NCBI GenBank assembly: GCA_963556255.1 | Contig: OY744604.1 | Coordinates: forward strand, 73,386,279-73,450,278 | Origin: Allolobophora icterica | Taxonomy: Eukaryota; Annelida; Clitellata; Crassiclitellata; Lumbricidae | DNA length: 64,000 bases | Reading direction: 5' to 3' | Shown: piece after piece, positions 7,804 through 63,942 of the stretch | Numbering within the stretch: the first letter of the stretch is position 1 | Layout: the number at the start of each line of letters is the position of its first letter | Made by a program: the position numbers and the translations under genes | The notes under the pieces: generated by a model | Seen by the model: only the letters and a program-made list of their open reading frames with translations | Database searches by the model: none | Told to the model about the DNA's origin: nothing

Positions 7804-7904
7804 CTAGATGTCCAGAGTGTCATAGACAGGCGAATTTTCGATTCCAGTTGCTTGCGTGTCCAAGTTATCGTATACAGGAGGCAATTGATCTGTGTTTCGT
7901 TGAC
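7804..7904 (-). CDS. gene A exon 10: cytoplasmic tail with two YxxL motifs
   Basis: Acceptor AG at 7906-7905; the exon opens in phase 1, completing GGT (Gly) with the last base of the TM exon, and ends at TAG 7806-7804. It encodes about 32 residues: GQRNTDQ, then LPPVYDNL, twelve further residues, then YDTLDI and stop. Two YxxL motifs 16 residues apart (Tyr to Tyr) resemble an immunoreceptor tyrosine-based activation motif with a long spacer (classical spacing 10-12). PPVY is also a PPxY motif, known to bind WW domains. Placement directly after a basic stop-transfer sequence (RRCK) supports a cytoplasmic location. Signalling is inferred from motif only. Confidence 0.78.
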
Positions 7905-8030
7905 CTACAGAGAACAAAGTCTTAGCTTAAGTTTTGTTTAAATAAACGTGGTTAAATTATTCGCGTCAAGATTAAAGCTGCACCACTAATACTGTAAAAG
8001 AAATACCGCATGTTCTTTTAGCGGTGGCTG

Positions 8031-9125: not shown

Positions 9126-9254
9126 CTTCTTCTCGTGATATTTCTTTACATCGGCGTACTATGAAAAATATTGCAACTCCGATGTAACCAAGAACGCAAA
9201 TCGTCGAAATCATGGCGATAGGGCCTATTGCATCATGTTGGTCATACGGTGCTG
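9126..9254 (-). CDS. gene A exon 9: transmembrane segment
   Basis: Phase 1-1 exon of 129 nt, the same length as gene C's TM exon at 55335-55463. Acceptor TTAG before 9254, donor GTAATG after 9126. It encodes a short juxtamembrane stretch (PYDQHDAIG), about 24 hydrophobic residues containing GYIGVAIFFIV, and a basic stop-transfer RRCKE. The core GYIG(V/I)AIF(F/W)IVRR is shared with gene C. No charged residue lies in the span, so pairing with an adaptor through membrane charges is not suggested. Confidence 0.85.
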
Positions 9255-9902: not shown

Positions 9903-9950
9903 TAATAAGGCCCATCTTAGTAGGCATTTAAGAATTAGAGCCTTATTACT

Positions 9951-12474: not shown

Positions 12475-12792
12475 CCAAAACTGTGACGACTGAACTCAAG
12501 GAGGCAAGGCTGACATCAATGCATGTGTAGACACCGGCCTGGTCCAGATCAGCATAATATATCACCAGATTGCAGACTCCTGGTCCACCTTTTTCAACAA
12601 AATTCTTGTAATAATATGCGGAGTTGACGACGCAGAAAGATGCAATAACTGTGGTATTTTCCTCCGTTCCATCTCTGCTGAGAGTCCAACTCGGAAGGTA
12701 ACCGGTGGCATTACTTGTGCAGTCCAGTTGTACTCGATTGCCAACGTCTACGGTGAAGTTCTTTGGTGCATTTGTTATGGCGCTACGTGCAA
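12475..12792 (-). CDS. gene A exon 8: Ig domain 1
   Basis: Phase 1-1 exon of 318 nt with acceptor CTAG before 12792 and donor GTAAGT after 12475. It encodes one Ig domain: LDC (B strand), SWTLSRDG (C strand Trp), and AGVYTC (F strand, the GxYxC signature). Two further cysteines, ASFC and GVC, are kept in all three paralogues and may form a second disulfide. Genes B and C have the same exon at 34078-34395 and 61515-61829. Framework blocks are nearly invariant, while the stretches before LDC and after FCVVNS differ. Only this copy has a canonical GT donor. Confidence 0.88.
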
Positions 12793-14152: not shown

Positions 14153-14318
14153 CTAATGGATTGACCTGGTATTTTACGTTGAATCCAGTTCCAGAGAGCG
14201 CAGAGTTGGTTTAGAAATATAAGCGAACAAGGCTACACAGCGTATAGGAAATCAATGGTGGTAAAGTATTGCCGCGATAGTAACGATAGCCATAGCTCGT
14301 GTTACTAGCGCAATCAAT
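14153..14318 (-). pseudogene. gene A exon 7: second half of CUB3, interrupted by a stop codon
   Basis: Phase 0 to 1 exon of 166 nt, same length as the copies at 35218-35383 and 63777-63942. It encodes IDCASN, the conserved [13 protein letters not shown], and [11 protein letters not shown]. The codon after RLYF is TAA (14213-14211); gene C has TAT (Tyr) there and gene B a sense codon. Acceptor TTTCAG and donor GTATGC are intact, so the damage is limited to one substitution. Confidence 0.85.
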
Positions 14319-15173: not shown

Positions 15174-15352
15174 CTCGACATAATCTCCGTTTGAGCTGTC
15201 GATAAAAGGTTCGAGGTCGAATGACTGGAAATCCAAGCCTACTGAGCTGACAGGATACAGGTAGTAATAGCAGGACATGTTGTTGTACTTATTAGGAAAA
15301 TTTGGAGACGTGATGATTCCGGATAGACCAGCGTAATTTGACTTGCCGCATC
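15174..15352 (-). CDS. gene A exon 6: first half of CUB3
   Basis: Phase 1 to 0 exon of 179 nt. It encodes [19 protein letters not shown], the first CUB strand with the hallmark SPNxP, then SCYYYLYPVSS and FDLEPF followed by GDYVE. The last matches the CUB consensus F.L....YDYVEI when joined to IDC of the next exon. Donor GTTTGT after 15174, acceptor ATTAG before 15352. The copy in gene B is 35885-36063. Confidence 0.87.
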
Positions 15353-17540: not shown

Positions 17541-17553
17541 GAGTCATCTATGG

Positions 17554-18108: not shown

Positions 18109-18271
18109 CATCTGGAGTAACGGAGTACTGAAGAATAAATCCGGTGAAGTCATTTGAGTAGTGTGTATGGTACCACATGAGCACTTTATTGCAATTGCTG
18201 ATGTAAGTTGGCTTTGGTAGAGTTGAACCACAGTATTTTGGCAATATGTAGCTGGAATTATCGCAACTGAT
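18109..18271 (-). CDS. gene A exon 5: second half of CUB2
   Basis: Phase 0 to 1 exon of 163 nt with acceptor TATAG and donor GTATGA. It encodes [21 protein letters not shown], containing the conserved YCG of CUB domains, then SNCNKVLMWYH and GFILQYSVTP. The first 30 codons are nearly the same as in gene B (38457-38619); the following segment up to GF differs at many positions. Confidence 0.87.
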
Positions 18272-18539: not shown

Positions 18540-18715
18540 CTGAACCCAGTCTTGTTGGCAATTTGAATCCAAATTGAATGCTTGGAAATTCAATGTAAAT
18601 GAACTAGACGTTGATGCCCAAATTGAATACGTACAATTCTCACTATAGTAATTATAAGGGTAGTTTGGCGATGATATAGTTCCAAACGATGCGGTGAATA
18701 CGGTGTTACCACAAT
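18540..18715 (-). CDS. gene A exon 4: first half of CUB2
   Basis: Phase 1 to 0 exon of 176 nt, acceptor TGCAG, donor GTGAGG. It encodes [46 protein letters not shown] and DWVQ, a typical first CUB half with C1-C2 and the FxxFxLD strand. Gene B's copy (39144-39331) is 12 nt longer. Confidence 0.87.
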
Positions 18716-22041: not shown

Positions 22042-22213
22042 CTCTGGTGCTAACTTGATACTGAACTCTGAAACCTATTGTTGAAAAAGAATGGTAGGAG
22101 TCGGAATAAAAATATAATCGCCCATAGCTGCACCAAGGAATCGATATCGGTGGAATATTAGAATTCCAGTAATATATCTTTTGGACGAAGCTGCTGTTGC
22201 TTTGACAAGTGAT
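22042..22213 (-). CDS. gene A exon 3: second half of CUB1
   Basis: Phase 0 to 1 exon of 172 nt, acceptor TACAG, donor GTAAGA. It encodes [34 protein letters not shown] and GFRVQYQVSTR, the C3-C4 half of a CUB. The copy in gene B is 41827-41998 with the same length. Confidence 0.86.
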
Positions 22214-26723: not shown

Positions 26724-26896
26724 CGACACATAATCTGATGAAGATCGGTCCAATTCAAAAGTCTCGAAGCTTAACGTTATCGAACTGACGGCTGAGAGCG
26801 AAATCGTGTATGTACACTGGGAATTGCTGTTATAGACATTCGGGTAGTTTGGAGACATAAAAACACCGTAGGTCGAGGTGTAAGTGCCTCCGCAAC
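26724..26896 (-). CDS. gene A exon 2: first half of CUB1
   Basis: Phase 1 to 0 exon of 173 nt, acceptor CATAG before 26896. It encodes [38 protein letters not shown] and DYVS. By alignment with gene B (donor GTAAGT at 44973), the donor here is GCAAGT (26723-26718), a GC-AG intron. An alternative GT lies a few bases inside the exon but would break the phase. All cysteines expected of the first CUB half are present. Confidence 0.85.
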
Positions 26897-28549: not shown

Positions 28550-28625
28550 TTTGAGCCTCGATTTTACCAATAGTAGAGGCAAGATGCAAAATTGAACAAA
28601 GGAGGGTCCATTTATCGAATGTCAT
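28550..28625 (-). CDS. gene A exon 1: signal peptide
   Basis: ATG at 28625-28623, followed by MTFDKWTLLCSILHLASTIG and KIEAQ, ending in phase 1 at a GTGAGT donor. Short polar start, hydrophobic core and a small-residue end (IEAQ) fit a cleaved secretory signal. The start was chosen because the paralogous exon at 47757-47679 begins with the same M(T/A)FDKWTLL and both lack an upstream in-frame extension of similar sequence. Confidence 0.82.
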
Positions 28626-41300: not shown

Positions 41301-44300
41301 CAGAGCGAATAACACACCTGCCCTAATCTATGAGAAAATGGAGATTGCATCACTTGCATAGTTAAAAGCGAACAACAATAATTCAATATCATCCAACAGA
41401 CGTTTATTGGATGTTATTCGCTGCGCAATCAAGCTGGCCACTGCAGCATTTCTGGCATTTTACCTAAAGTAAATGAAAACTTGGCAATATTGGCCACAAT
41501 TTTCGGAACACAGTTGAGAAGGACTGGAGCTCCGGGTCTAGCTTTATGGATGGAACAGCAGACTCTGCACGATAAACAAATGGACTATGATGACTACATC
41601 GTTAGTGACAGCATTAACTGTACCTGGCGCTGCTGATAAAATGTGGGGCTGCAAAATTCGCACAAGAATTCATACATAATTCTCTGAACAGAAGCAAGGA
41701 ATCGCTGCGTCAGCAATTCTTCCTCAGCCTTTGTCAATACCTTTGTACGCGTCAGGTGTTTTCCCAAGACAAATGAACTTCCTCGTCTGCCTAAAAACAT
41801 TTAACGCAAAGATTACGTTGTCTTACCTTTGGTGTTAACTTGATACTGCACTTTGAAACCTCTTGTTGAATAAGGCTGGGAGTTATCGGAAGTGAAAACT
41901 AATAGCCCAGAGCTGCACCAAGGAATCGATATCGGTGGAGTGTAAGAATGCCACATATAACTCTTTTGGACGAAGCTGCTGTTGCTTCCACAACGTATCT
42001 GTACAAGTAAAATTCTACATATGTATTAATTATTTTACTTAGCGATAATAATAAATATATACATAGTACAATAAAGGTTAGTCTCTTCTCCTTTCCTGCA
42101 ACCTATCATTTCTGGGTATGGAACTTTTGGCTGAGGCACGGTGTAGAACTGTCATCAGATCCCATGATTTCCATCGTGCTGTCCCAAGGAACCGACTACT
42201 AATATTTCTCCGATGCTGAAACTCTTTTCATAATCGCAAAACTCACTATTTCTCGCTGGCTTTAAAGTTCTTGATGTGTTGTGGAGTCGGGGGAGAGAGG
42301 TAATCCGAGACCAGAAATCAGATAAGGTTACAGAGATACTTTGGTGCTAAGCCAGAGTAAGACCGGAGGTCCAGAGTACGAATCTTAAGCTGAATTCGAC
42401 CTGTAGGAGGAGCCAGTGATCAATGTGATCAAACATAAAAAATATGAGGCGAGCGTGGAAGTGGGGTATTAATTTGGCTGAAGCATTTAAGACAGTCTGG
42501 AGGAAGTTAGACGGACTTTTGAAGGATGAATCCAGACAGAGTTGCAGCAATCAATTCTGGAGACGGTGAAGTCATGGACAGACCTTCGAATTCCTCTCAG
42601 CCGCCTGAAGTGAAAGTAAAGAAGAACGTTAGGTTGACAATGTGTTCAGAAACAGTAAACGTGCTGTCAATGACTACACCAAGATCACGGACAATTGAAA
42701 GGAACGTGAATGACGGGAATTTCTCAGCAAGATGATGGAAGTTCAGTTTGAGAAGCTCCTGGCGAATGCCGAACCACATAAGCTGTGTTTTAATTGGGTT
42801 CAGTGAGAGACGATTTGAAAACAGCCAAAGGTGTAAATCACGAGAAAGAGCACCAATGCGACCTGTTAATGCAATCTCGGCAGCGGTAGGGCCATGAACT
42901 AACGCCTGAACATCATCTGCATAGAGATGGCCTGTTGATAAGTGCCTGGCGAATATGGCTGAGATATCGGCCGTATATAAGAGGTAAAGAAGAGCACAGA
43001 GGGTTCTAGAGTCTCTACAGATGACGACCATTTGTGTACGATCGGTAAGGTAGGAACGGAACCAAAGAAGATAGGGCCTCGGATGCCACAAGAGGTCTCA
43101 ACGACGTTGCAGTGAGATGTCATGGTCTACCATATCAAAGGTAGGAGAGACATCAAAGAGAGTCAGCAGAGTGAGCTGAGACCTAACCATAGCAGAGTAA
43201 AATATGAAGAAATATGGAGAACAGGATCGTTTCAGTGAGTGATGACCCCTGTGACCTGATTGCCTGAAAGGTAGAAGACCTGATTGCTCAAGGTAAGGGA
43301 TTAGTCGCCGGCACGGCCGCCATCCGCCGCTTAGCCCTCAAGTCGAAAAAAACCCCTAAGCTATCGACTGCTAGCGACTTCGTTCACTTAATATCTTGCG
43401 GTTTCCGAGTTTCGAGGAGGACAGAAGCAACAGTTATTGCCTATAGGGTAAGTGTCAGTGCAAGATAGTATACAGGTCATGCAGTGGTTGCAAGTGCTAA
43501 TAGCGGCAGCATTGGAGTGTATGCAGCACTCGTTACCAACAGGATGAAACTTATTCAGTAGCACATACCCTGTGCTCGAGCAGCTCCTGGTGTTGGACTG
43601 CGCGAGGAAATCAAGAACTATCTGCGATACAACCCCGACGAACAAGATGAAGCTCTTGCTAAGAGTGTTCTCACTCAGAACCCTGTTCAATCCCGGTTGA
43701 GACCATGTTTTCGACCATGGAGCTGATATTGAATGGTGAAAAGGTCAACCATGGAGCTGATATTGAATGGTGAAAAGGTCAACCCTCGGCCATTTTAGAG
43801 CTAATTGGCTCTCATTCATCCATGACATTTATAAACTGTATTTTAATTTAACCACCACAAAGTGATTGCAGCGTGTTAAAGTTAAACTCCTTAGATCCTC
43901 ATAAATTGGCTTCGTTGCTGTTGATATCTATGTTTATTCAGTTATTTGTAGTGAGCTTGTAGTGAACTTAAACTTTCAACACCTGCTAATTGCTAGCTGG
44001 ATTTATCAACACTGAGTGGATTGCAGGCTGAACAATCACTGCAATGCAGCCTTGGACTAAGTCGCATTAAAAATGCCGCATTCCTTTTATAAACACTCAG
44101 ATGCGTCTGTCACCTTTCATAAATTCACATTAGGCCTAACATTTCACAGTCATCGAGCGGAGCCCATATTTACCCATTTTCCCATATTGGACTCGTGTGG
44201 AGCCCATATGGGTTCCATCTAATGACCAGGGATATAATGGCACTGTCAGTGGAGTATGCGGTAAATTGCATCATATTGTTGGATAATCAGGTATGTCTAC

Positions 44301-44903: not shown

Positions 44904-47757
44904 GTGTAATATGCTGCTTGCAGTATCACGCTAACGGTTAACTTAATAAGAGGTATTGTAAATTTGTACTTACCATGACTGAATCTGCAGAAGATCTGTC
45001 CAGTTCAAAAGTCTCGAAGATTAACGCTATGGAGCTGATGGTCATGAGCGAAATCGTGTATGTACAGCCAGAACTCAGGTTATAGACATTCGGGTAGTTT
45101 GGAGACATAAAAACACCGTAGTCGCCGGTGTAGTTGCCTCCGCAACCTGTTGAATATACATGCAGGTAAATATTGTGAATAAAAGGTATTAAATTCTTTC
45201 CCGGTTTCATAAGAGTTCCACTTATTTTGTATCTGGCTGACATAAGATTCTGATGATACATTAGATTCAGAGAATGGGCCGCTACTTATGAGACACGGAA
45301 GGTGCTTGGCTTAGCGCAAGCCTTGCAATGTGGATTGTATGAGTTCGATCGTGCCTTTGATGGATCTTGTGTTGAACCATGAGCAATACCTTTACGCACA
45401 ATTGTTCAGTGCCATCGTCGACTATTGCTTTGCTATTAGGGCCTACGTATGTAGCTGGCCAGTAAGCTACATTGGTAAGAACATAGGCTGCGTCGCTTAC
45501 TCCTCTGTATAAGAGAGCACGAGGAGCGCGGTTCGCATCCCAATCACTGGCGTAAACTTGTCTAAAATATTGAGGGACTTGGGTCTTGACAATCAGCGAG
45601 TCTCCGAAACTTCACGTGTTACGTAATATGTGTGAAAGGCGGCGCTGTAGACGAAGGTTTACGCGGGTATACAGCGTGTACTCACCTCTAAAGAATGTAA
45701 TCTCACCTCTCAAAAATACATTTTGCATACTCATCTCTGGAGAGCATGTACTCACCTCCAGAACGTACTTTGACATAATCTTTTAATACTCTAGAGTTTA
45801 GACTATAACTTAAAGAAAATTTCAGTTTCAAATTTAATTATTTCTGTTTGGTTGACCTAGCGAGTTGTAAAGCAACTTTAAAGCTCTAACAGTGGATTTG
45901 CAGATTGAAAACCAGACGCGGTGGAAAGTATTGTAATTTGTAGTTTTGTGACTAATTTTGCATTGTTTGATTACTTTGTAATATTTTATTATATTTCAAT
46001 ATACAGCAATCTTTGTAATCATCGTTAGTTATTGCCAGTTTTATATTCAGTTAATCCAAAAAAAGCTGAACACAACATTTGTATTTAGCACATGGCCCAT
46101 CTTGGGTAGCTTGCTTCGGCTAAGAATCGCCGCATATCTTTTGATGTGAAGCAATACTTATACTTTAGCAATACTTATACTTTTCCATGCTATTAAAAAC
46201 CTTTTTGGGCCTATAAGCTTTGAGACCAAATGCCTAAAATGCGATTGCTTTTTGTTGTTTGTTTTCATATATGAACGCCACTGCCACTTGATGAAAAAAA
46301 TTTTGTTTTCAATAAATGTTCGCATAGTTGACGCATCAGAAATTGAGGAAATCCGCTATTTCTATAGCTTAAACGCTCACCAAATTGCTTCCATATTTCG
46401 ACCCACCTTCCCAAACCCATTCCCCTCAGTGATTCGGAAAACTAACCTGTAGCATGTACACTGGCGTAAACTTGTCCAAAATATTGAGGGAGGAATTTGG
46501 TTACTCATTCTACACTTGTTGTGGTAGGGTGTACACTGTACAGTTCATCTCAATTATTGGGGTTACGTGCCCCGGCTGCCCCCCCCCCCCAAGTCTACGC
46601 CTATGAGCATGTACCTCTAATATGACCGCTACAGCACTGATGAAATGGGTATGTTTAATTTAAAATGTATATTTGTTTCATATTGAAGATATTGAAGATA
46701 TAAATAAATCTTTGTGTTGAATGTGAATTTCTGATAGTAATTCAGTTCTCTGTTTCTGTTTTCTGTTTTTGAAGAATTTTATCTATACTGAACCACACTA
46801 ATTTAATATTTCAAGAAATTCTCGTGTAGGTTTTTTTCACGGGGGCAATGCCCCACCTCCTCAATTATTGGTGGGGCACGTGCCCCGGCTGATCCACCGA
46901 GTCTACGCCTATGCTCCCGATGGTGGCTTATTTCATAGATTTAAATCTTGGGCTAGTACGGTCCGTACACGGGACTTTAAAAGACGTGTCGCCTACTCAG
47001 ACGGGCAGCGGTGGTGGAGGACTTCACCCGATGAATACATTGACAAATAAGCGATCTCGAGGCCATACAGTTGATATATAAAATCGTGTACATGTAGATT
47101 TACATATGTAGCGGCGCTTGGTACATATACACAGAATAAAAATGCTTAATACTGACCCTAAACTATTCAAAATTTAAGAATCCGTAAGGTTCAGCAGTCC
47201 ACTGAGGTTCATTTGGTTGGTCTCAGTGTCTGAGGGCGAAGTAGAAGTCATCCCCTCGCCGCATGATCTTCCCACCGACGGAGGATCAGTTTCATAGCTG
47301 AGTTCGCTAGGTGGCGTAAGTTGAACAGAAATTAACAGAAACAGGGCAGAAAGACCTTTTTGAAATATCTTTCTGCCCTGTCGAAGATTTAAACCCCCGA
47401 CATCTGAGTTGATAATCCAACACGGTTGCCTCAAGACTTTTGTCATAATTCCGTTATTAAAACATATATTCTGTTCATGATCAGATTAAAGCATATTCAA
47501 TACAAAATGAACTAGGAAATATTTTTAGCCTGAATAACAGCAAAGTCGTTCTATTGACGATGTGTTTAAAATTATTTTAATTTATTCAGCGTTTACGGGC
47601 ATGTGGACAATATTTTGTATAGGGACCTATTGTTGAGCGATTAACGTGCAGACGTAGAGTTTAACTGGTGTCACTCACTTTGAGCGTCGATATTAACAAT
47701 ACCAGGCACAAGAAGAAACACAGCTGAATAAAGCAACGTCCATTTATCGAATGCCAT
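31990..47757 (-). CDS. gene B: SP-CUB1-CUB2-CUB3-Ig-D receptor lacking its membrane exons
   Basis: Nine exons on the minus strand: 47757-47679, 45146-44974, 41998-41827, 39331-39144, 38619-38457, 36063-35885, 35383-35218, 34395-34078 and 32319-31990. Together they give 1768 nt (589 codons plus one base) with no internal stop and compatible phases. Downstream, the Ig2, TM and tail exons found in gene C are absent. If the last donor is not used, translation continues CKYIQD and stops, giving a secreted protein of about 595 residues. Alternatively the gene is dead or spliced to gene A exons. Splice sites are by eye. Confidence 0.72.
32340..33135. other. intron of gene B without recognised feature
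   Basis: Homologous in parts to gene C 57935-58560 (for example CACATTTCAATTCTT and AATGAATTAATAGA), so it is retained duplicated intron. No gene. Confidence 0.5.
33140..33200 (+). mobile_element. severely truncated LINE 3' tail
   Basis: GGAGCGCCACTGAGTAGAT...GAAGGGGCGCCATATAAG matches the last 60 bp of the LINE ending at 26550. Nothing upstream of it matches, so it is a 5'-truncated insertion. Confidence 0.65.
33262..33340. repeat. ATCC/ATCG microsatellite
   Basis: Imperfect (CATC)n run, with a related tract at the matching intron position in gene C (58865-58935). Confidence 0.8.
33488..33768. mobile_element. right half of a hAT-type MITE
   Basis: Matches the right 240 bp of the complete MITE at 11432-11929 (GTTGACAGTGTTCAATGTTC, TTGCATATTGCTGATTTTTT, TTAGTTAACTATT), ending CCCATGACTG. 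The left end is absent. Confidence 0.75.
33810..33975 (+). mobile_element. LINE 3'-end fragment, same position as in gene C
   Basis: CACTGGCTTTCAAACATTTGG and TTGCGCGTTA...TTTGTAATAATA match 61290-61395 in gene C. Both lie between the Ig1 and D exons, so the insertion predates the B/C duplication. A (CA)n tract follows at 34011-34034. Confidence 0.6.
34078..34395 (-). CDS. gene B exon 8: Ig domain 1
   Basis: Phase 1-1, 318 nt. Acceptor TTGTAG; the donor aligned with gene A is GCAAGT (34077-34072), a GC-AG intron. It encodes [48 protein letters not shown] and AGVYKCIDV. Four conserved cysteines as in A and C. The differences cluster between GY and VQ, and in the [12 protein letters not shown] loop. 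Confidence 0.87.
35218..35383 (-). CDS. gene B exon 7: second half of CUB3
   Basis: Phase 0 to 1, 166 nt, acceptor TTTCAG, donor GTATGC. It encodes [28 protein letters not shown] and [11 protein letters not shown] with no stop, in contrast to gene A. Residues between SYEKC and NSAL are the most variable across A, B and C. Confidence 0.87.
35885..36063 (-). CDS. gene B exon 6: first half of CUB3
   Basis: Phase 1 to 0, 179 nt, acceptor TTTAG, donor GTTCGT. It encodes [39 protein letters not shown] and GDLVR. The final DLVR replaces DYVE of gene A, so one residue of the usual CUB strand is changed. Confidence 0.86.
36242..36692. mobile_element. MITE with GGGGTCGTCCATTAATTATGTCAAC-type inverted repeats
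   Basis: Starts GGGGTCGTCCATTAATTATG and ends with its reverse complement (CATAATTAATGGACGACCCC), followed inward by C-rich tracts on both sides. 451 bp. Target duplication not clear, so the superfamily is left open. It lies in gene B's CUB2-CUB3 intron. Confidence 0.85.
36770..37620 (-). mobile_element. L2-like LINE 3' fragment
   Basis: Minus-strand frames with shifts: [28 protein letters not shown] (about 37590-37510), [10 protein letters not shown] (about 37410), [33 protein letters not shown] (about 37370-37270) and a final [16 protein letters not shown] (about 36980). This is the usual C-terminal order of L2-like elements. Stops interrupt it. Confidence 0.78.
37970..38280 (-). mobile_element. 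LINE 3' tail fragment
   Basis: Minus strand contains AGCGCCTCTGAATAGTTCGCAC and GAGGCGCCTTATAAATTC, the tail type seen at 7205-7420 and 39940-40000. Confidence 0.5.
38457..38619 (-). CDS. gene B exon 5: second half of CUB2
   Basis: Phase 0 to 1, 163 nt, acceptor TATAG, donor GTATGA. It encodes [35 protein letters not shown] and [11 protein letters not shown]. Compared with gene A the first half is nearly unchanged, whereas HTDNSNVFS versus HTHYSNDFT is changed. Confidence 0.87.
39144..39331 (-). CDS. gene B exon 4: first half of CUB2
   Basis: Phase 1 to 0, 188 nt, acceptor TACAG, donor GTGAGG. It encodes [47 protein letters not shown] and DWVQ. Relative to gene A it has four extra codons: a 9-nt tandem duplication coding VFA, and one extra Asn. 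Confidence 0.86.
39880..41090 (-). mobile_element. degenerate LINE, reverse transcriptase and C-terminus
   Basis: Minus strand reads [27 protein letters not shown] (about 40740-40650, motif C degraded to NADN), [22 protein letters not shown] (about 40450-40390) and [17 protein letters not shown], ending in a GCGCTTTATAAATTC tail (about 39940). Counterpart of 20690-21120 in gene A. The ORF at 40834-40586 looks like a secreted domain at first sight but is this RT remnant. Confidence 0.7.
41827..41998 (-). CDS. gene B exon 3: second half of CUB1
   Basis: Phase 0 to 1, 172 nt, acceptor TACAG, donor GTAAGA. It encodes [31 protein letters not shown] and [11 protein letters not shown]. Same length as gene A's exon; the PPISIPWCS block is unchanged, with flanking residues altered. 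Confidence 0.86.
42110..42300 (+). mobile_element. LINE 3'-end fragment shared with gene A
   Basis: Matches 22385-22600 (TTTCTCCGATGCTGAAACTC, GGCTTTAAAGTTCTTGATGT) at the same intron position between CUB1a and CUB1b. Confidence 0.6.
42350..44590 (-). mobile_element. L2-like LINE, reverse transcriptase, split by an insertion
   Basis: Minus strand: [25 protein letters not shown] (44570-44480), then after the insert at about 43300-44455 [16 protein letters not shown] (about 43150), [25 protein letters not shown] (about 42920), [19 protein letters not shown] and [12 protein letters not shown]. Motif B is lost (a deletion between CRDSRTL and [10 protein letters not shown]), and frameshifts are present. 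Related to, but distinct from, the LINE at 23190. Confidence 0.78.
43300..44455. mobile_element. unidentified insertion with AGTCGCTAAGTCAGTCG repeats
   Basis: Interrupts the LINE reading frame, which resumes on both sides, so it is an insertion. The right 170 bp carries repeated and inverted AGTCGCTAAGTC and GACTTAGTCAGTCG blocks; the left has GATTAGTCGCC and TAGCGACTTCG. A 35-bp tandem duplication (CCATGGAGCTGATATTGAAT) lies at 43715-43785. No transposase and no clean target duplication. Confidence 0.5.
44683..44903. repeat. (ATT)n, poly-T and (TTA)n microsatellites
   Basis: (AAT)/(ATT) runs at about 44683-44740, a T run to 44763, then (TTA)n at 44840-44903. ORFs of poly-Ile or poly-Asn on either strand are artefacts of these repeats. 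May mark the 3' ends of LINE or SINE insertions. Confidence 0.95.
44974..45146 (-). CDS. gene B exon 2: first half of CUB1
   Basis: Phase 1 to 0, 173 nt, acceptor CAACAG, canonical donor GTAAGT. It encodes [49 protein letters not shown] replaces the more usual DYV at the end of the first CUB half. Confidence 0.86.
45545..46913. mobile_element. DNA transposon (MULE-like termini), 1.37 kb
   Basis: Left end CACTGGCGTAAACT; the right end read inward is CATAGGCGTAGACT. Imperfect target duplication ATCCCAAT / CTCCCGAT within a SINE. No transposase. A 160-bp stretch at 46160-46320 also occurs at 63013-63175. The terminal word CACGTGCCCCGGCT...GTCTACGCCTATG is shared with 49330-49380. Confidence 0.65.
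46460..46605. mobile_element. nested MITE with 9-bp target duplication
   Basis: Starts ACTGGCGTAAACTTG, ends GTCTACGCCTATG, the same termini as the 1.37-kb element that contains it. Flanked by perfect 9-bp repeats AGCATGTAC at 46451-46459 and 46606-46614; 8-10 bp is usual for MULE elements. 146 bp, no coding. Confidence 0.8.
47679..47757 (-). CDS. gene B exon 1: signal peptide
   Basis: ATG at 47757-47755, then [19 protein letters not shown] and IVNIDAQ, ending in phase 1 at a GTGAGT donor. Strong hydrophobic core and DAQ end fit a cleaved signal peptide. The homologous start in gene A (28625) supports the ATG choice. Confidence 0.84.
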
Positions 47758-54182: not shown

Positions 54183-54325
54183 CTAGCATTCGTCTGCTGT
54201 CCCGGAACAGGATGGCGAAAGGACACGAATAGGAATATCATCGTTCGCAGGTGTTGGTGCTGAAATCGTCGTGTAAATATTTTCATGTCTCGTATCCTGA
54301 AAATCTTGATATGTGTTTCGCTGAT
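54183..54325 (-). CDS. gene C exon: cytoplasmic tail with YQDF and YTTI
   Basis: Acceptor CTGCAG before 54325, stop TAG at 54185-54183. It begins DQRNTYQDFQDTRHENIYTT, homologous to GQRNTDQ of gene A, and continues to a Cys-ending tail of 47 residues. Y-x-x-F, eight residues, Y-x-x-I has the spacing of an ITAM, but with Phe at the first +3 position. Bases just after the stop read, in another frame, SLDI and stop, matching TLDI-stop of gene A; one of the two tails has probably shifted frame. Confidence 0.75.
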
Positions 54326-57300
54326 CTGCAGCGAACAAAACATTTTAGTCAATGCAAATAGTGGGCTTTAAGTTTTTGGTACGCTCTTATGCGTGTTATG
54401 CATTCTTATGCGAAGAATGAATGATAAACTTGTCGTGCACGGATACAAACCACTACCACTGGTACTGTAAAAATACAGCATAATCTTTGAGTTTCGATCA
54501 TAGGCCTGTTCTCCACCCACTCATTAATGGTTATCTCTGAAAAGACTGGAAACAGCTACGTAGGACGCGATGCCCCTTCGACAACGCTGTTGCCTTACTA
54601 TTCAACGAGTGCCCAGCTTAGATACAGTAGACAACACTGGATTTCGGCTCTGGAATTGAAAAGGAAATGAACTGTCTTATTTTGTTAGCGCACGTAATAG
54701 GGCTTGTCAAATCGCTAGTCTTAAAGTGAAGTACGGTGGCGTCCACCTTTTTAACTGCTTTAGCTTCCGCAGTTAGGTTCAATATAGTTTCTGAGGCATA
54801 TTAAGATATAAATATATATCATTGAAAATGTCTTTTTAGTTTGGAATTACTGTAGGAGTCGCGTTTCTATCGAGTTAGTCGTAAACGAAAGTTTCACTCA
54901 TAGTCTACGTTTTGAAGCAAACGTCACAATATCACATGAAACGGTCGATCTTTAACAAGCTAATCTTCAACGTGTATGATTCTAACATAGAGTATTTAAG
55001 AGCGTACCACAAACCACATGAAGCAACTAAACAATTCGTCGGGAGGCCGCAGCTCAGCCAGCGAAAACACATCTGACAATGATATCTCAACGTTGTCCAA
55101 CATATGGCCCTAATGTGTGTGCTGCTAAGATAACACTACTTTTCTGCGAATAGGCTGGTCTTCCCAGTAGAAACTGTATGTTGAAGTTATAGTGAGAATG
55201 TCACACCTTTCCCATATGAGTTTCCCAAATGACAATAGGCTGTGGTTAACGATTACCTTTTTGCCAATAGGCTGACAACCCTAGAGCAGCTGTTGTGTAG
55301 CAATGAGATATTTTGAAGATGTAGGCTATATTACCTTCTTCTTTTAACATTCCTCGGCGTACTATCCAGAATATTGCTATTCCGATGTAACCAAAACCGA
55401 AAATCGCTACAAGCACTGCGAGGACGATTACGACGTCGTTTGAATCAGTTGTTTCAACTTGAACTGAGATAAAGAAAAACGACAAAACAAATAAAATTTA
55501 AAATTATTTTAACGTAACTGAATGAGTCAAACAACGTTTACTTAGGTTATTTGATAGTTGGAAGCATCTAAACATTGTTTAAAGCTTTCAAATACAATTG
55601 GAAACTGTAAACAACGGCCAGAAAACCTCTTCCAACTTTCGGTCGTTTGAACATTATAATAGTTATTTAATAATAATAAATCTGTTATTTAATTAAGCGC
55701 CTGCAACCGCACTGCGCTGTACAGTGAAAATACATATAGTAAAAACGGCAGCCATACATGTATACAGCAGAAACACATGATAACAGTTTTACAGGAGTCG
55801 AATATAACTGTTTAAGCGGCAGCCATACGGCGCCATTCATGGCCTACTATTCATTTAACCACCGCTGCCACCTAGCAAAAGGGGAGGCTGAATAAACCTT
55901 ACGGTGTCTACGGGGTTCGATCTTGGTACCTTCAGCTCTCCACGCCAGTGTGTTATGCATTACTCTACGGGTCTTTAGGCCAATTTGCACTGGCCTATAG
56001 ACGAAGAAAAACCTGTTTCGAGTCGACTACATAAGACTAGCCTTGATTTGATTGGCCCATCCAATAGTGTAAGACTACATCGATTCAAGATAAGATAAGA
56101 ACGAGTTTTCTTTTCTTTTACCTAGATCATATAAATGTAGCTTAGTTTATAATGTTCGAGTAGATGATGAAAACCGTGATCGTAATTCATATAGAAAAAC
56201 AAAGACACGATTCCTATGACCAAAGTAAACCTGCTGAACTAACACAGGTCAGAACCAAAATATTACATTTGTATCATACAACTTACTATAAAGAATTATC
56301 GACTTTGAGGCCCAGTAGGTTTTGTCTCGGATGACATTAGATGTATTGCAAGTGTATTCTCCGCTGTGTGTAACATGAAGGTAGTATCCATATGAACTGA
56401 TGCCATTAGTGTGATCCCGCCAATAGTAAGTGGGATAAGGATTGGAGACGACCGTGCACTGAAGTAATCCATTATAGGCAATGTAACCATTGTTATCACC
56501 GGTTATAGTCATGTTGCTTTCTTCCGGCCAATCTGCCATAAACCGAAAATGTCGCTTATTAAATAAAAACGCCGGAATTAATAAACTACATAACAATTAA
56601 GCGCTTGCCTACAATTAAATTTGTTTCTTTTTATCAACTGCTATTAATTTGAATTGTTCTTATTGGGGTTTCACAGAATTCTGTGATGTGTTGTTTTCAT
56701 TTGAAGTACAACAGAACTTGGACATTTTGTTCTCGTTGTTTCAAAACGTTGAGTATCAGATTTACAACAGCATTTTACAACTTGCTTATTTTGTCTTGCA
56801 CGTAGCATAAGGTCTTGGCCGGTATCTAATGAGTTAACTAATAGTCCCAGGGGCAGAACTGTTCCATATCAGGTCCCACATCACTCTTTGAACTATTCGT
56901 CTCTTAATTTCACTTCCTCACCTTCTCTATTCATGGTAATCTGAACTCTATCCGAAATGTTTCGTTATTCTACTCTACACTTCTCTACACGAAGTTAAAC
57001 TAAAATTATCAGATTATACTTCTAAATCCTATTATAAAACACGAGCAGAAAACTTTAGAAAACCAGATTATTAAAGAAGGGCATGTATTAAATTCAACAG
57101 GCTACATAAGGATTTCATAAGTAAACTGCTTCTGAGTGTAATATTTCTATAATGCGGGTTTGCTATAAGTAGAGAGTCACAAAAGCAGGCTATATCTAAG
57201 ATTTAATCTGGAATATACTTACATAAAACCCCGGTATATGAATCGGTAGTTTTTGTGTAGCTGTATACTGGAGCATTGGTTGCGTAATCTTTACGATTAA

Positions 57301-60300
57301 TTGGAGCAGAAAAGGTCAGCTTGAATCCATACGAAGGAACAACTTCAGGTTCAGCTGTGACATTGATGGAAGAGATGATGATATTTGGCAGCGTGATGTT
57401 AGAAATGGCAGATGACTTTCCTGTGGAATTCCAGGAATAAAGCATCGGCAGAATGGGAGCAGGTGCGACGGAACCGTTAAATTTCACATAATACTCAAAC
57501 GTTATTATGTCTCCTTTGACAAGCTGGTACTCTCTGATAACATTGGGAACCACATCTACAGAGTTACATAATGTATATACACATTATACAGGGTGGGCCA
57601 GCATAAATGCGCCAGTTTAGAAGCATATTATACAGGGCGGGCCAGCATAAATGCACCGACTTTGCATGCGTATAACTCCGCCAATTGTTGTAAGTTATTT
57701 ATACTCAATGTGTCAAATTAAAGATATTTCAATCTAGTATTAGCTTTGAAAAAGTCGAACTGGTACTAGTTTAAATTTCAGGGAAATGTTTGGAACTGCC
57801 ATAGCTATCATATTCAAAGCTAATACTAGAGTGAAATATCTTTAATTTGACACATTAAGTATAAATAACTTACAAAAATTGGCGGAGTAATATGCATGCA
57901 AAGTCGGGGCATTTATGCTTGCCCACCCTGTATCTAAACTGGCGCAGTTAATCAGATATTGTATAAACATAATTATTCATATCATTTAAATGACCAGAAC
58001 ATGTAATAAAACTGTGATTGAGGAAATGATTGTTGGCCAAGACTAGGTCAGGAAACTGTGATTGAGGAAATGATTGTTGGCCAAGACTAGGTCAGGACCT
58101 TAATTTCCCGAAGAATCACATTTACGTGTCACGAGATAATATGCGTTACACATTTATAAAATAATAATAAATGTAAGATCTATGTACAAGTGCAGCCGTA
58201 TCAAACACGCCTACTTGGAGATGCTCAATTTAAGTAAAGGAGTGACCCAAATTCTTCTATACCACCAACAGCGATAACTCTGCAGATTTAGCATAACGAA
58301 TGAAAGAGGGTAGCTTCTTAATTAAAGTTCTACATCCACGCAAATCACATTTCAATTCTTCAAGCCTACGACAATAGCTCAACGATTTTACTGACGTTTA
58401 AACCGACTGAGTACCAATGAATTAATAGAGAATTGAAAATGAAAATTGAAAAGAAAATCATGACAGAATGCGACAAGCGTACAAAAACGGTATGGCATTT
58501 AGTTGAGCTAGAGCATACATGGGCCCTAAATCTTGTTGTGAGCTACATAATCGCTCTACATGAAGTATCCTAATATATAAACATGCAGGGCTTTTTTCAG
58601 CCGGAACGCGCCGGTACGGCGTTCCGGCACCTTTTTCAGCTACTAAAAAATAATTTAGTTATTTTAATAATTAAAAGAATAATTTAGTTAATTTAATTTA
58701 ATTTCAGTGTTTTTGAACTGGTTTCAGTGTTTATTGAAACCCCTACCAACCCCCCAATCCCGTTTTTCTCGTGATTTTAGCCCGCCCATAATTGTTGCGT
58801 TCCGGCACCTATTGTTCCGTTCCGGAACCTTTTTTCCCAGAAAAAAAGCACTGTGTACATGCATACATACCCAAACATACGTCCATCCATCCATCAATTC
58901 ATCCATCCAACCATCGATCTATCCATCCATAAATCCAACTCTGCTCTGTCAGCTGCATTGGCTTACTCTATAATTCATAGTAAGTTTTAAGCTGGCTTGT
59001 CTTACCTATTATACCATGACAACGAATACTTTTGCCTACATTCAACCACTTCTCTCTCCTTATATTCCGCAAACAGTCTGCTATATTCCAGGGGCGGCGC
59101 CAGACACTTTTTGTAACCAGGGCATAGCCAGGGCAGTCATGCAAGTAACCAGGGCAGAGGGCGGCGATTCATGGCGAGCGTGGTAGCTGTTTTTCCTGAG
59201 ACATTCATTGTTTTGTAGGTTGTATATTTTTCAGCACTGGAGCGATGTTCTTCGGAGTACATGTGTTGGAGAAATGCGTTTGACTTGTTATCCGACCCAG
59301 TGCACCTGTTCCAGGCACGGAAACCACTGTGAATAAACACTTGATCCTTGCGTCGTTCTTGTGATTCTTGCCTGGTAGTCATGACAAAATGACGACAATA
59401 GAAGCAATAAGCAGAATCATTCACTTTTGAGTATTCCAACCAGCTATACAGCTGGTTGGAATACTCAAAAGTGAATGATTCTTCTTATATACAGTTGCTT
59501 TGGGCCATCATCCACTGACTGCGATAGATCACTTGGACCGGGTGCGACCGGGTGACAGGACTGAACTTGCACAGGTGGTCCTAGTACGTCATCAGCATGT
59601 TCATCGCCAAGCTCGCTATCTTTGTCACTTTCACTTAAATTAAAATCAATGTGAGAGTCCAAGGTTTGAAAGGATGCGTTGGCAACAGGACTATAGCTTC
59701 ATCTGTGGCCCCTTCGCATGTCAACTCCACGTATTGTGTGTCTACAACCGCCCAACGCAAAAGTATATCGATTTGTCATAGATAGGCTAGGCCTATTGTA
59801 TGGATAATTAATGCAGTGATAAGTTTATATGCGTGGAATGTATGGATGGGATGAACGGGCTCGAACCATATGTATTCATATTTATATGTGCTGCCGTGAC
59901 TGCAGTGACTGCAACTAAATGGCTACTTTTCAGTATGGATCCTCGTGTGCATTTGCAAGCTGCCATCCTGTGTGAACTATTTATGGCAGTGATTACAGAT
60001 TAATGGTTTCTCTCCAGTTAGAATCCTCATGTGTGTTTGCAACTTTGCAATTTGCGGTCATATCATTAGCCATTTTAACACATTTTAAATTCGCCTTATG
60101 TCACAAGCTTTTTTAGTGCATTTGCATTCAATTCAATTTCTTCAGTTCAATTCAACTTTATTGATCCGAATTCAATGCAAAAGTACAGTAGGCACCAATC
60201 GGAATGTAACACTTTCCGGATACAACATTGATTATAAGTTAAGCTAAATGGTATTTCTTCTCCACTCCAGTAATTGCAGTTAGATATATATGAGTACGTC

Positions 60301-63300
60301 TAAGTCCTGACAGCCACGTTGTCGTGGGGAATCTATATTATAGGTTGATACTGGTAGCTCTTTCAAGTTTCAAATGATATTTTTATTAATGAAATTAATT
60401 AATTCATTTTATGAATAGAATTGAAAATGCAGATTTGCGTTACTTTAGCAATTTTACGACTATTCTCACGCAATATGATGCCATAATCACGTACGGTACA
60501 TTCAGATTAAACCAATAAAGAATCGGGCGGCGACGCCGGGGTGTAGGACGTTGTTAGGCTGGCATTTCTATGCTTTGCTTTAAATTACTTACCGTCGTCG
60601 GAAGGTAAACGCGGGCGTTTCGGATTCGGTTTCTTCAGATACCGATCCATCCTAACGGTATCGATCACTCAAACTTTAAGAATTAAGTAGCAAGATTATC
60701 AAGATATCGAATAAAAAATAATTAAAAATTACGATGATCGATGATAATGGATAGATCGCGTTTGAGTGACGTCATTGTGTTGAATATTATGACGTTTTCG
60801 ACTGCGCAGACTCAGAGCGCGGACTTCGGACCCCGATATATATAAGAAGTCGTTGCTTCGGAAGGAGGGAACAGTAAGTAAGTAATGCTGTTGAGGCAAA
60901 GCAGGTCTTTACATTTACATTTAACTCACTCGATATAACGAATTATAGCGCCCATATTTTAATATTTTTCTAAGAATATAAAAAAATACTCTCCGAAAAA
61001 ATTCTGGGCAGGGTAAAAATACTGGCAGGGCAACGACCAGGGCAACGACCAGGGCAACGACTTTTTTACCAGGGCATATGCCCTGGCTCGCCCTGGTGTA
61101 GCGCCGCCTCTGCTATATTCTAATGTGGGACTTTTAGTCGAGCCTCGATTTTGCGCTGCCATGGGCTCTCGTGCATTACATGTAGTTGCCCCTTAAGGAA
61201 TGGAACCGACTACCAATGTTTGTCCGATGTTCTAACTCTTTCTGGTCCTTCAAAAATCGGCTCAAAGCTTACTTTATCTCGTTCACTTTCAAACATCTGG
61301 ATATATAACTGGTCTTCACCTGACGACTGACTAACCGCGCCTCTGATTCGCATTTCTGAGTGACCTTGCGCGTTAAAAATGTTTGTAATAATAGAAAATA
61401 ATACACATACACATACATCCATCCACATATAAATACTTGCAGACATATATACATACATACGCACGTTCATATCTATATACATACAAACAACGGACATTAA
61501 GCATTAACACTTGCCCACAATTGAGACGACTGAACTAAAGGAGGCGAGGCTGACATCAGTGCATGTGTAGACACCGGCCTCGGCCAGAGTAGCGCTATTT
61601 ATCACTAGGTTGCATACTCCAGGTCCACCTTCTTCAGCAGAATACTTTAAATACCCGGAGTTGACGACGCAGAAAGATGCAATGACTACGGTATTTTCTT
61701 CCATTCCATCTCTGCTCCAAGTCCAACTTGGCAGGTGACCAGTTGCATTACTTGTGCAGTAGAGTTTCACTTGACTGCCGCGGTAGGCGGCGATATTCTT
61801 TGGTGCATTTGTTATGGCGCTATGTGGAACTGCAAAGAACAAAGATGTTGTTCAGAAGAGTAAACCATACACGCTTTGCGTTAATAATGTAGCCATTTCA
61901 TAATTAAAACAGGCTTTTATAGGCCAAGACGATAAAAAAATTAGTAAAATTTAAAACATGCTGATTCACAGGAATCATGGAGGGATCGGAGAGAAAGGGA
62001 AGACCATGCAGGGAATGGCTACAGGACATCGAGGAATGGTGTGGAAGAGAGTAATCAACTGTGCAGTGGACACCTACAGGCTATCAGCCCATGGATCATG
62101 AAGAAGAAGAAGAAGAAGAAGAAGAAGAAGAAGAAGAAGAAGAAGATTCCTTTAATTATCATGTGTCTAATATAAATGATCCAAGAGCAGCTGATTGTTA
62201 AAACATAAATTTTTTAATAGTAGGTCATCATTCCAAATCTCTCACTATTATTTGATTCACTTAAAAAAATTAATGCATCGCATAAATGGCAACGCAGTCA
62301 TCTTTCATTTACATTGCAACAGAATTCAGGTTGATTGGAGGCTTTGCCTTTGAAAGGTGTCGATCCTTTGAAAGCTCAGTCCCTACTGGTCTTAAGTTGG
62401 TTGAAACTGAGCATTCTGTCGAGCTTGGACTATTGTAACTCTCTTATCGTAGGCCTGCCAATATTCTGCATGCGACAGCTTCAATCCGTCCTCAACTGTG
62501 CCAAAATTGTTGCTAATTAACCCAAATTCTCATGTTTCGAACTACTTGAGTGAGACGCTGCACTGCCTTCCAGTCTCGGAGAGCAGGACCTTCAAGATCC
62601 TCCTCGTGGGAAGAGCTTCGATAGTTGGTAGCCTGGTCAAGGCTGTGAAGCGTTGCTTTCAGCAACCTTCTGAGCCCTCTTCACGTACGACGATATAGTA
62701 GAAGTTTAACAAAAGACAGATAAGAAAGGATATTTTCTAGTGTTTGGAACACGTAGTTGTTCATGAGCAATATCATTAGCATTCATTTGCTCATATTGTG
62801 ACGATAATTTTCTGAACAGCATGAATTAATGACAGTGCACGTTTTCATCATCTTCATTCTTTTATTCCGAACACCTATCATTGAATAGCTACTGTTCATC
62901 TACTAAGTTGATGAGTAATAGGTTTTCAATAAATTAACTCATGTGATGATTTAAATTATAAAGCCAACATTGAAATGAAAACATAAAAAGTTTTAAATGA
63001 AATCATAGTTGTATACTTATACTTTTCCATGCTATTAAAAACCTTTTGGGCCTATCAGCTTTGAGACCAAATTGCCTAAAATGCGATTGCTTTTTGTTGT
63101 TTGTTTTCATATTATTATGAACGTTACTGCCACCTGATGAAAAAAACATTAATTTTTCAATAAATGTTGAATTAAATTTCGGCCTGCATACCCTACGCGT
63201 TTGGTAATAAGGCCCATATCATGGCATCAATGACAAATTTGATTTGTTAGTATGTAACCTTTAATTTCAGCGAAGTAATTAATCCAGTAGGCTAAGTTAT

Positions 63301-63942
63301 GTAACTACTGCCACACAATTTTCATTTGGAAACAGTTAAATAGCATAGCAGTAGCCTTTATCAAATTTGCTTTTTGTTGTTTGTTTTCATATTATTATGA
63401 ACGTTACTGCCACCTGATGAAAAAAACATTAATTTTTCAATAAATGTTGAATTAAATTTCGGCCTGCATACCCTACGCGTTTGGTAATAAGGCCCATATC
63501 ATGGCATCAATGACAAATTTGATTTGTTAGTATGTAACCTTTAATTTCAGCGAAGTAATTAATCCAGTAGGCTAAGTTATGTAACTACTGCCACACAATT
63601 TTCATTTGGAAACAGTTAAATAGCATAGCAGTAGCCTTTATCAAATTCGTTACGTGGGCTTTATTCACTGCAGTTACCTTAATATTTACCTTGGTAAGAG
63701 CAAAATAATCATTTTCAAAGGCTTAAATGTGAAGCAAATTTAAGCAATAAAATTGTAAAATAATTGAGAGGCATACCTAATGGATTAACTTGGTATTTTA
63801 CGCTGAATCCAGTTCCAGAGATCGCATTGTTAGTATAGAAATATAAGCGGACACGGCTGCACTTTGAATAGGAAATCAATGGCGGCAACGTGTTTCCGCG
63901 ATAGTAACTATAGGGATAACTGTAATTACTTTCGCAGTCAAT
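54183..63942 (-). CDS. gene C (partial): CUB3-Ig1-D-Ig2-TM-tail receptor
   Basis: Six exons on the minus strand: 63942-63777, 61829-61515, 57555-57223, 56532-56287, 55463-55335 and 54325-54183. They sum to 1332 nt, exactly 444 codons including the stop, all open. The signal peptide, CUB1, CUB2 and first half of CUB3 would lie beyond the right edge. This copy keeps the full membrane-proximal plan (D, Ig2, TM, tail) and is the reference for what A and B have lost. One donor (after Ig1) is GC. Predicted type I cell-surface protein; function unknown. Confidence 0.78.
55335..55463 (-). CDS. gene C exon: transmembrane segment
   Basis: Phase 1-1, 129 nt, acceptor TCTCAG, donor GTAATA. It encodes QVETTDSND, the span VVIVLAVLVAIFGFGYIGIA, then IFWIVRRGMLKEE. 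Clear single membrane helix with basic stop-transfer. Same length and core as gene A's 9126-9254. Confidence 0.87.
55840..55990 (-). mobile_element. tRNA-derived SINE, minus strand
   Basis: Minus strand: GTAGAGTAATGCATAACACAC (A-box region), CAAGATCGAACCCCG (B-box), then TAAGGTTTATTCAG, as in the SINE at 52130-52310. In gene C's TM-Ig2 intron. Confidence 0.6.
56287..56532 (-). CDS. gene C exon: Ig domain 2, membrane-proximal
   Basis: Phase 1-1, 246 nt, acceptor GGCAG, donor GTAAGT. 82 residues: WPEESNMTITG, LLQCTVVSNPYPTYYW, HSGEYTCNTSN. B-strand Cys, C-strand Trp and GEYTC make a short C2/I-type Ig domain. No counterpart remains in genes A or B. Confidence 0.86.
57223..57555 (-). CDS. gene C exon: D domain, cysteine-free
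   Basis: Phase 1-1, 333 nt, acceptor TGTAG, donor GTAAGT. The core [46 protein letters not shown] is almost the same as in gene B (31990-32319). The first ten and last ten residues differ. One codon longer than B. Confidence 0.8.
57634..57930. mobile_element. mariner-like foldback MITE with TA target
   Basis: About 120-bp inverted arms starting CAGGGCGGGCCAGCATAAAT and ending ATTTATGCTTGCCCACCCTG, flanked by TA at 57632-57633 and 57931-57932. The matching intron of gene B (around 32360) lacks it, giving an empty site. A short extra copy of the terminus (TACAGGGTGGGCCAGCATAA) lies at 57587-57610. Confidence 0.85.
58009..58096. repeat. 44-bp direct tandem duplication
   Basis: The unit containing TTGAGGAAATGATTGTTGGC and CAAGACTAGGTCAGGA occurs twice head to tail without visible differences. 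Intronic, no coding. Confidence 0.9.
58586..58853. mobile_element. hAT-like MITE (GTTCCGGAACC family), complete copy
   Basis: Begins CAGGGCTTTTTTC and ends GAAAAAAAGCACTG; inner GGTACGGCGTTCCGGCACC and GTTCCGGAACC. Flanks TAAACATG and TGTACATG agree at only 6 of 8 positions. The ORF at 58707-58973 is not a gene. Confidence 0.75.
58865..58935. repeat. ATCC-type microsatellite
   Basis: Imperfect (CATC)n run corresponding in position to 33262-33340 of gene B. Confidence 0.75.
59089..61112 (-). mobile_element. hAT transposon, 2.0 kb, perfect target duplication
   Basis: Left end CAGGGGCGGCGCCA; right end read inward CAGAGGCGGCGCTA. Perfect 8-bp repeats CTATATTC at 59081-59088 and 61113-61120. 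Near the left end the minus strand encodes the start of a transposase (59662-59137): an acidic N-terminus (SDKDSELGDEHADD), then after a break WLEYSKVNDSAYCFYCRHF and GFRAWNRC, a TTF-type zinc finger as in hAT/ZMYM-like proteins, and FLQHMYSEEH. The catalytic part is missing, so it is non-autonomous. The ends carry ACCAGGGCA-type repeats. Located in gene C's Ig1-D intron. Confidence 0.88.
59413..59482. repeat. perfect 33-bp inverted repeat with 4-nt loop
   Basis: Arms 59413-59445 and 59450-59482 are exact reverse complements (TTTTGAGTATTCCAACCAGC ... GCTGGTTGGAATACTCAAAA) around ATAC. It interrupts the hAT transposase frame, and one arm is the WLEYSKVNDS coding sequence, so the other arm is an inverted duplicate of it. 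Confidence 0.95.
61140..61400 (+). mobile_element. LINE C-terminus fragment
   Basis: Plus strand reads LPKEWNRLPMFVRCSNSFWS, then FKNRLKAYFISFTFKHLDI and stop, typical of the last residues of CR1-like ORFs. Corresponds to 33810-33975 in gene B. ORFs on the minus strand here are shadows. Confidence 0.68.
61515..61829 (-). CDS. gene C exon: Ig domain 1
   Basis: Phase 1-1, 315 nt (one codon shorter than A and B), acceptor TTGCAG, donor GCAAGT (61514-61509), a GC-AG intron. It encodes [58 protein letters not shown]. Four cysteines and Trp conserved; differences concentrate in AYRGSQ and in NSGYLKYSAEEG. Confidence 0.87.
61960..62145 (+). mobile_element. LINE 3' end with (AAG)n tail
   Basis: Plus strand reads MEGSERKGRPCREWLQDIEEW, a sequence type found at the end of some LINE ORFs (EGxRxRGRPRxxWxDDI). 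It is followed by a short 3' UTR and a pure (GAA)n run at 62101-62145, probably the element's tail. Confidence 0.65.
62330..62700 (+). mobile_element. LINE reverse-transcriptase C-terminal fragment
   Basis: Plus strand, with a frameshift near 62510: LSSLDYCNSLIVGLPIFCMRQ and LQSVLNCAKIV, then NYLSETLHCLPVSESRTFKILL. This is the LDYCNSL..GLP..LQ.VLN.A..I / LHWLPV..R..FKIL order of L2/CR1-like elements. Confidence 0.7.
63013..63175. repeat. dispersed repeat also present at 46160-46320
   Basis: TTATACTTTTCCATGCTATT, CTTTGAGACCAAA and GCGATTGCTTTTTGTTGTTT are shared with the DNA transposon at 45545-46913, suggesting another fragment of that family. Confidence 0.65.
63089..63648. repeat. 280-bp exact direct tandem duplication
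   Basis: 63089-63368 and 63369-63648 appear identical base for base over 280 bp. No coding. Either a very recent duplication or an assembly artefact. Confidence 0.9.
63777..63942 (-). CDS. gene C exon: second half of CUB3
   Basis: Phase 0 to 1, 166 nt, acceptor TTTCAG, donor GTATGC. It encodes [37 protein letters not shown] and [11 protein letters not shown] without a stop. The first exon half and the earlier exons must lie beyond the right edge of the window. Confidence 0.87.

Follow-up and report, generated by a model that had tools for sequence, protein, structure and literature searches.

Vertebrate CDCP1 carries three CUB domains, one membrane span and a tyrosine-containing tail, lacks Ig domains and is encoded by a single gene, and we know of no CUB domains in the Alr proteins of Hydractinia. 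For Botryllus schlosseri, 53 loci of fester co-receptors (FcoR) are reported, with tails that contain immunoreceptor tyrosine-based inhibition motifs (ITIM), hemITAM or YxxI/L/V motifs (PMC12065747). The same report names Hydractinia candidates with immunoreceptor tyrosine-based activation motifs (ITAM) or ITIM (PMC12065747). Among annelids, the Paraescarpia genome report describes TLR and NLR families as expanded in tubeworms (PMC8476170). Here, we analyzed a 64,000-nucleotide stretch of the chromosome-scale Allolobophora icterica assembly (G000:C3:73386279-73450278, hereafter the window; 1.118 Gb in 328 contigs) and the array of putative CUB/Ig receptor genes in which it lies. A preliminary description, made from the window's sequence, had reported three genes with one exon set and identical intron phases, and all of the exons that it named are present, at the positions it gave, in three minus-strand paralogues, genes 1, 2 and 3. 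The full exon order is signal peptide (SP), CUB1a, CUB1b, CUB2a, CUB2b, CUB3a, CUB3b, Ig1, a domain called D, Ig2, transmembrane exon (TM) and tail.

The array resembles Botryllus FcoR in that multigene type I receptors of one locus combine Ig domains with tyrosine-motif tails (PMC12065747). Unlike FcoR, with its V-Ig, sushi and two C2-Ig domains, the genes here encode three CUBs, Ig, D and Ig, and they belong to another phylum; the sushi domain of FcoR had no Pfam match at E ≤ 1 in the models of gene 2 or gene 3. A further difference is that no fusion phenotype is known for the array genes. Alr is also a set of tandem invertebrate type I genes of the immunoglobulin superfamily with reported ITAM/ITIM-type motifs, and differs in its Ig ectodomain, which is not known to contain CUBs. 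CDCP1 shares the three CUBs, the membrane span and the tyrosine tail and differs in the absence of Ig and in being a single gene. The best protein-database match, a 900-aa Joint Genome Institute metagenome protein (P0001), shares the CUB types described below and differs in having six CUBs, no Ig in its precomputed Pfam list and a low-complexity C-terminus. Searches of open-licence literature, judged by title and the start of the abstract, turned up no report of a CUB-Ig-D-Ig family with ITAM tails, and the architecture, which the preliminary description had not recognized, was matched to no named family.

Receptor genes in the window and the surrounding array

The case that the family encodes receptors is strong, and two of its genes are complete. 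Gene 3 (minus strand, like all genes described here) runs in the window from CUB3b at the edge (63.9 kb) down to its tail at 54.2 kb: CUB3b (63777..63942, its first base being 63942), Ig1 (61515..61829, GC donor), D (57223..57555), Ig2 (56287..56532), TM (55335..55463) and a tail with stop codon (54183..54325) that carries a single YTTI. Its SP to CUB3a exons lie beyond the window, at G000:C3:73451026-73461015. The whole gene has 12 exons and 758 codons, its sole stop is terminal, and hydropathy peaks at residue ~679. Its neighbor, gD, is the second complete gene, with 12 exons, 772 codons and, again, a terminal stop only. The predicted products have the signal peptide, ectodomain, single membrane span and tail of a tandem type I receptor family, as had been proposed.

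The other two window genes lack some of these exons. Gene 1 (28.6 to 7.8 kb) extends from SP (28550..28625) through CUB1a (26724..26896; its donor is GC if the exon is taken to the phase-0 end found in the other copies), CUB1b (22042..22213), CUB2a (18540..18715), CUB2b (18109..18271), CUB3a (15174..15352), CUB3b (14153..14318, with an in-frame TAA) and Ig1 (12475..12792), followed by TM (9126..9254) and a tail (7804..7904; YDNL-x12-YDTL) whose stop codon ends at position 7804. Gene 2 (47.8 to 32.0 kb) comprises SP (47679..47757), CUB1a (44974..45146), CUB1b (41827..41998), CUB2a (39144..39331), CUB2b (38457..38619), CUB3a (35885..36063), CUB3b (35218..35383), Ig1 (34078..34395, GC donor) and D (31990..32319), the last exon found. 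The claim that the three genes differ in completeness holds for genes 1 and 2, whereas gene 3 is partial only through the end of the window. Protein identity between corresponding exons of the window paralogues is 65-81%, with lower values for the signal peptide (56%) and for the membrane exon (42%).

We joined and modelled 264 kb around and including the window (the window plus 200 kb). A phase-0 intron splits every CUB, and all other modules are phase 1-1. With a slide of up to 6-7 codons allowed, splice signals stood at the expected phase at 72 of 76 acceptor sites and 72 of 73 donor sites; at random places the corresponding frequencies were 23% for acceptors and 31% for donors (under a stricter donor rule), and both signals plus an open frame occurred at 1.2%. 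GC takes the place of GT in eight of the 72 modelled donors across the array, in five cases at Ig1 and in three at CUB1a, and the CUB1a of gene 1 was entered in the donor tally with a GT alternative. The domain search on joined exons matched both expected families: PF00431 recognized three CUB stretches in gene 2 (E = 3.2e-46) and Ig_3 two Ig stretches in gene 3 (1.2e-11; 45.4 bits against a cut-off of 30), while the Ig of gene 2 and several single Ig exons fell below the curated Pfam cut-off.

The window lies inside a head-to-tail array on the minus strand at C3:72.80-73.59 Mb. The tandem arrangement reported earlier stands, and the locus is much larger than three genes. Among the additional copies, gA is a CUB1-CUB2-TM-tail gene with a frame open from CUB1a to tail and no SP assigned. 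In gB, which has the exons from CUB1a to the tail, the frame stays open up to and including D, but no donor was found for the D exon. gC is like gene 1: no D or Ig2 was found, a stop lies ahead of the membrane span, and no acceptor was found at the membrane exon; its CUB1a escaped detection, and the place where it would be expected is occupied by a run of N. Of the nine membrane-exon matches in the 264 kb, eight have a readable tail downstream. Additional TM/tail pairs at C3:73567-73568 kb and 73469 kb could represent either alternative ends or relics.

ITAM-type tails

Ten tail matches were modelled, of which two were degenerate and excluded. We scored the remaining eight, all readable, for the pattern Yxx[LI]-x(6-12)-Yxx[LI] and found it in five, with a spacing of 9 in four tails and 12 in one. 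In 20,000 shuffled sets, none reached five such tails. The four tails with spacing 9 are those of gA, gB and two unassigned membrane exons (73591 and 73567 kb), the latter tail being without a modelled acceptor; the fifth belongs to gene 1, the sole window gene with the pattern, whose stop lies upstream of its tail. The tyrosine tails of the preliminary description are thus borne out, with an ITAM pattern in most of those that can be read. In addition to the YTTI tail of gene 3, two tails lack the pattern: gC and gD each carry PPAY and one YDTI or YDTL, and gD additionally carries YAHV.

Exon loss and selection

A search of the window with tblastn found no Ig2, membrane or tail exon for gene 2. 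Its alignment to gene 3 continues up to 31433 (gene 3 56696) and resumes at 31435 (55037), so that ~1.66 kb with Ig2 and TM is gone at this junction (31433..31435). A piece matching gene 3 55150-55036 lies out of order at gene 2 31238-31118, indicating more than one rearrangement. The gene 2 product, if made, would be secreted. In gene 1, D and Ig2 are absent and CUB3b contains its one TAA; omission of CUB3a and CUB3b would be predicted to preserve the frame, as the pair (345 bases) starts and ends in phase 1.

Over all shared codons, the ratio of nonsynonymous to synonymous substitution rates (dN/dS, with 95% bootstrap intervals) was 0.48 (0.36-0.65) for genes 1 and 2, 0.50 (0.33-0.76) for genes 1 and 3 and 0.61 (0.41-0.93) for genes 2 and 3. 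Across the array, mean values for ectodomain exons were 0.18-0.44, with some dS near saturation. By the window and ectodomain values, purifying selection dominates. Single exons gave 1.31 for CUB1b (a point value without interval), 0.95 (0.48-2.17) for D and 1.11 (0.39-6.09) for SP. Gene 2 is open over nine exons and 589 codons; in simulations with 0.1 changes per site, a 584-codon frame survived in 0 of 1000 runs. The view of the family as rapidly evolving fits its turnover, seen in deleted or missing exons and in copy number, but not its sequence, for which dN/dS is mostly below 1.

A distinct CUB type, domain D and relatives elsewhere in the genome

Two extra cysteines, at 'DW.(Q/E)I.C'-like and '..C...L.F'-like places, are present in all 12 CUBs compared, six from genes 1 and 2 and six from P0001, and neither occurs in 168 other CUBs taken from database matches, which are mostly cubilin- and tolloid-like proteins. 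In a tree of 62 CUB domains, the 12 unite at 99/92. Types A and B within this group separate weakly (97/75, drawn open, and 92/36), in a tree with few columns and a bootstrap that had not settled. The pattern is A-B-A in the genes here and A-B-A-B-A-B in P0001. The Ig1-D-Ig2-TM-tail half returned nothing at E ≤ 1 among 4859 protein-database candidates, in a search that requires shared 5-residue words and similar length and is weak evidence of absence.

Domain D itself had no match among Pfam Ig, NCBIfam or PDB sequences. AlphaFold 2 gave a predicted local distance difference test score of 45 for D and 46 for Ig1, and hhalign found no signal between D and Ig1 or Ig2, nor between Ig1 and Ig2. 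A relative of D on C13 reads VEGETVTMSYTVRY..VLNWTDSDG..SSISVTAERQVMRPYTCRISF, with a tryptophan and Y.C at Ig-like places, and its best Pfam match was the Sp38 Ig (E = 0.088, below cut-off). Judged by this alignment, which was made by eye, D probably represents an Ig-type domain whose cysteines were lost, and not a new fold.

We next consider how far these modules extend beyond the array. The D query gave 26 matches genome-wide, with all 93 candidates scored. Fourteen are strong (E ≤ 3.1e-28, stop-free) and lie without exception on the minus strand at C3:72.795-73.551 Mb; the 12 weak ones (26-34% identity) are distributed over C13 (ten), C9 and C2 (one each). For Ig1, the best 150 of 412 candidates were scored, and the 142 matches obtained are a lower bound. 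At least 21 are strong (E ≤ 2e-27; 20 stop-free), again all on the minus strand, at C3:72.798-73.551 Mb. Apart from one fragment of a strong match, the others among those scored have E values of 1e-10 or weaker and 26-43% identity, and the weaker ones lie mostly at C13:45-53 Mb, with the rest on C2, C4, C9, C1 and elsewhere. When the two sets were combined, 11 of the 12 weak D matches proved to have an Ig1-like match no more than 4.0 kb upstream on their strand, so that Ig followed by D seems to be an older unit. Within the range inspected, the C3 array is set apart by its CUB part: the one C13 place that was read (5 kb) contains an Ig1-like fragment (E = 0.02), a D-like and an Ig2-like piece.

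For CUB, the best 150 of 1124 candidates were scored. Among the matches listed, dense groups besides the window array lie at C3:91.2-93.1, C8:67.7-68.7, C1:96.7-97.0 and C1:61.9 Mb. We inspected one 10-kb piece from each of the first two, L041 (G000:C3:91764001-91774000) and L042 (G000:C8:68564001-68574000). Both contain CUB exons, which in aligned pieces are 46-66% (L041) and 30-38% (L042) identical to P0001; exon queries found no Ig, D or tail exon in either piece and one low-complexity TM match.

Other sequence features

Several repeats lie among the exons of the window. A perfect tandem duplication of a 280-base unit (63087-63647) sits in the CUB3b-Ig1 intron of gene 3. Between CUB1a and CUB1b of gene 1, positions 23190-26498 (plus strand) encode an open 1102-aa protein of a long interspersed nuclear element, with endonuclease and reverse transcriptase; a search with it gave 49 matches, the four closest 60-68% identical, and one weaker match is a fish protein (33%). 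Copies of a short interspersed nuclear element, tRNA-like by eye, are found at 8029-8259 and 27292-27523 and are 97% identical. The palindrome TAGGCCTA occurs 23 times in the whole window, against 0.62 expected. Sequence upstream of gene 2 (48007-49316) recurs with 73-76% identity at 4013-4753, ~9 kb upstream of the SP of the next copy, and no matching counterpart was listed upstream of gene 1. Outside the window, the CUB3b-Ig1 intron of gD (G000:C3:73485351-73496220) holds large minus-strand frames, one of them resembling, by eye, an adenain-type protease; they may belong to a Polinton-type transposon.

On contig C328, nad3-nad2-cox1-cox2-atp8-cox3 all lie on the same strand (gene names assigned by eye), an order that is the annelid mitochondrial ground plan and points to an annelid host. 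Its COX1 reads with 11 TGA codons, AAA stands for Lys at conserved ND2 places (by eye), which argues against the echinoderm code, and AGA for Ser. The presence on C8 of COX1-like pieces that contain TGA suggests nuclear copies derived from the same kind of mitochondrion. A second COX1 match (G000:C257:6513-7808), without TGA and in a 721-aa frame, may mark C257 as a bacterial contig in the assembly.

Function of the family and alternative explanations

On balance, we somewhat favor the view that the array is a tandem family of type I membrane receptors that evolves by birth and death, part of it predicted to be of ITAM type. ITAM-type signalling is likely for that part, judging from the tail motifs, and we infer a possible immune or self-recognition function for the family. 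In this model, the CUB/Ig ectodomain would bind a microbial, self or non-self ligand, and clustering would allow a Src-type kinase to phosphorylate the YxxL/I pairs of the ITAM-type tails. Once phosphorylated, the pairs would recruit a tandem-SH2 kinase of the Syk type. Tails that have a single YxxI/L, or PPxY, may instead serve tuning or trafficking, and copies lacking a membrane exon, such as gene 2, could be secreted, possibly as decoys. As whole modules start and end in phase 1, the loss or skipping of a domain would leave the frame intact and in this way create receptor variety.

Several observations weigh against this model. Three of the eight readable tails lack the ITAM pattern, and the two complete genes, gD and gene 3, are among these. 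Several tails came to light through a screen that selected for tyrosine motifs or a QRN start, and the five ITAM tails are not independent, as they form three groups of related sequences. With a mean dN/dS below 1, the positive selection that a recognition surface would be expected to undergo is not apparent, and the values for CUB1b and D do not show it either. Finally, conservation across the array is lowest in tails and membrane exons, at 28% and 35% identity.

The strongest alternative, which we consider unlikely but worth weighing, is that the genes encode non-immune adhesion or developmental receptors, for example in gamete, nerve or tissue recognition, and that the YxxPhi and PPxY motifs act in endocytosis and in turnover linked to ubiquitin, not in ITAM signalling. 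Purifying selection, the lone YxxI of gene 3, the PPAY motifs of gC and gD and the largely cubilin- and tolloid-like database matches of the CUBs would all be in keeping with such a role. It sits less well with the many tandem copies and their exon losses, or with an ITAM spacing of 9 kept in four tails despite a mean tail identity of 28%.

It is improbable that the array is a gene graveyard in which most copies are pseudogenes and the window holds relics. The CUB3b stop of gene 1, the exon losses of genes 1 and 2, the gC membrane exon with its stop and missing acceptor, the gB D exon at which no donor was found and the two degenerate tails have the look of decay. By contrast, reading frames are uninterrupted across all 12 exons of gene 3 and of gD, between CUB1a and tail in gA and between SP and D in gene 2; dN/dS is below 1; and all 14 close D matches and 20 of at least 21 close Ig1 matches are stop-free.

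That this is at heart a secreted CUB family (mucus, cuticle or opsonin-like) with secondary membrane forms is very improbable: P0001 has a leader-like N-terminus (by eye) and six CUBs of the same type without listed Ig, the piece at C3:91.8 Mb shows the same alternating CUBs, and no membrane exon was found for gene 2, but most of the nine membrane exons in the 264 kb lead into readable tails, and the complete genes carry both.

Returning to the ITAM-type receptor family, annelids reject grafts, as older transplant work reported, and we know of no receptor family responsible. We raise, tentatively and as less than probable, the possibility that the C3 array, the related Ig-D genes (C13, C2, C9) and the poly-CUB arrays (C3, C8) together form an annelid-specific recognition system, with a large CUB/Ig repertoire, activating (ITAM) and other tails, secreted partners and frame-neutral domain loss, and that it is a candidate basis of graft rejection and microbe discrimination. 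The exons and tails defined here can now be tested directly in coelomocytes. A clustered family of ITAM-tailed receptors in annelids, if true, would point to a further origin of paired-receptor-like repertoires, this time from other ectodomains.

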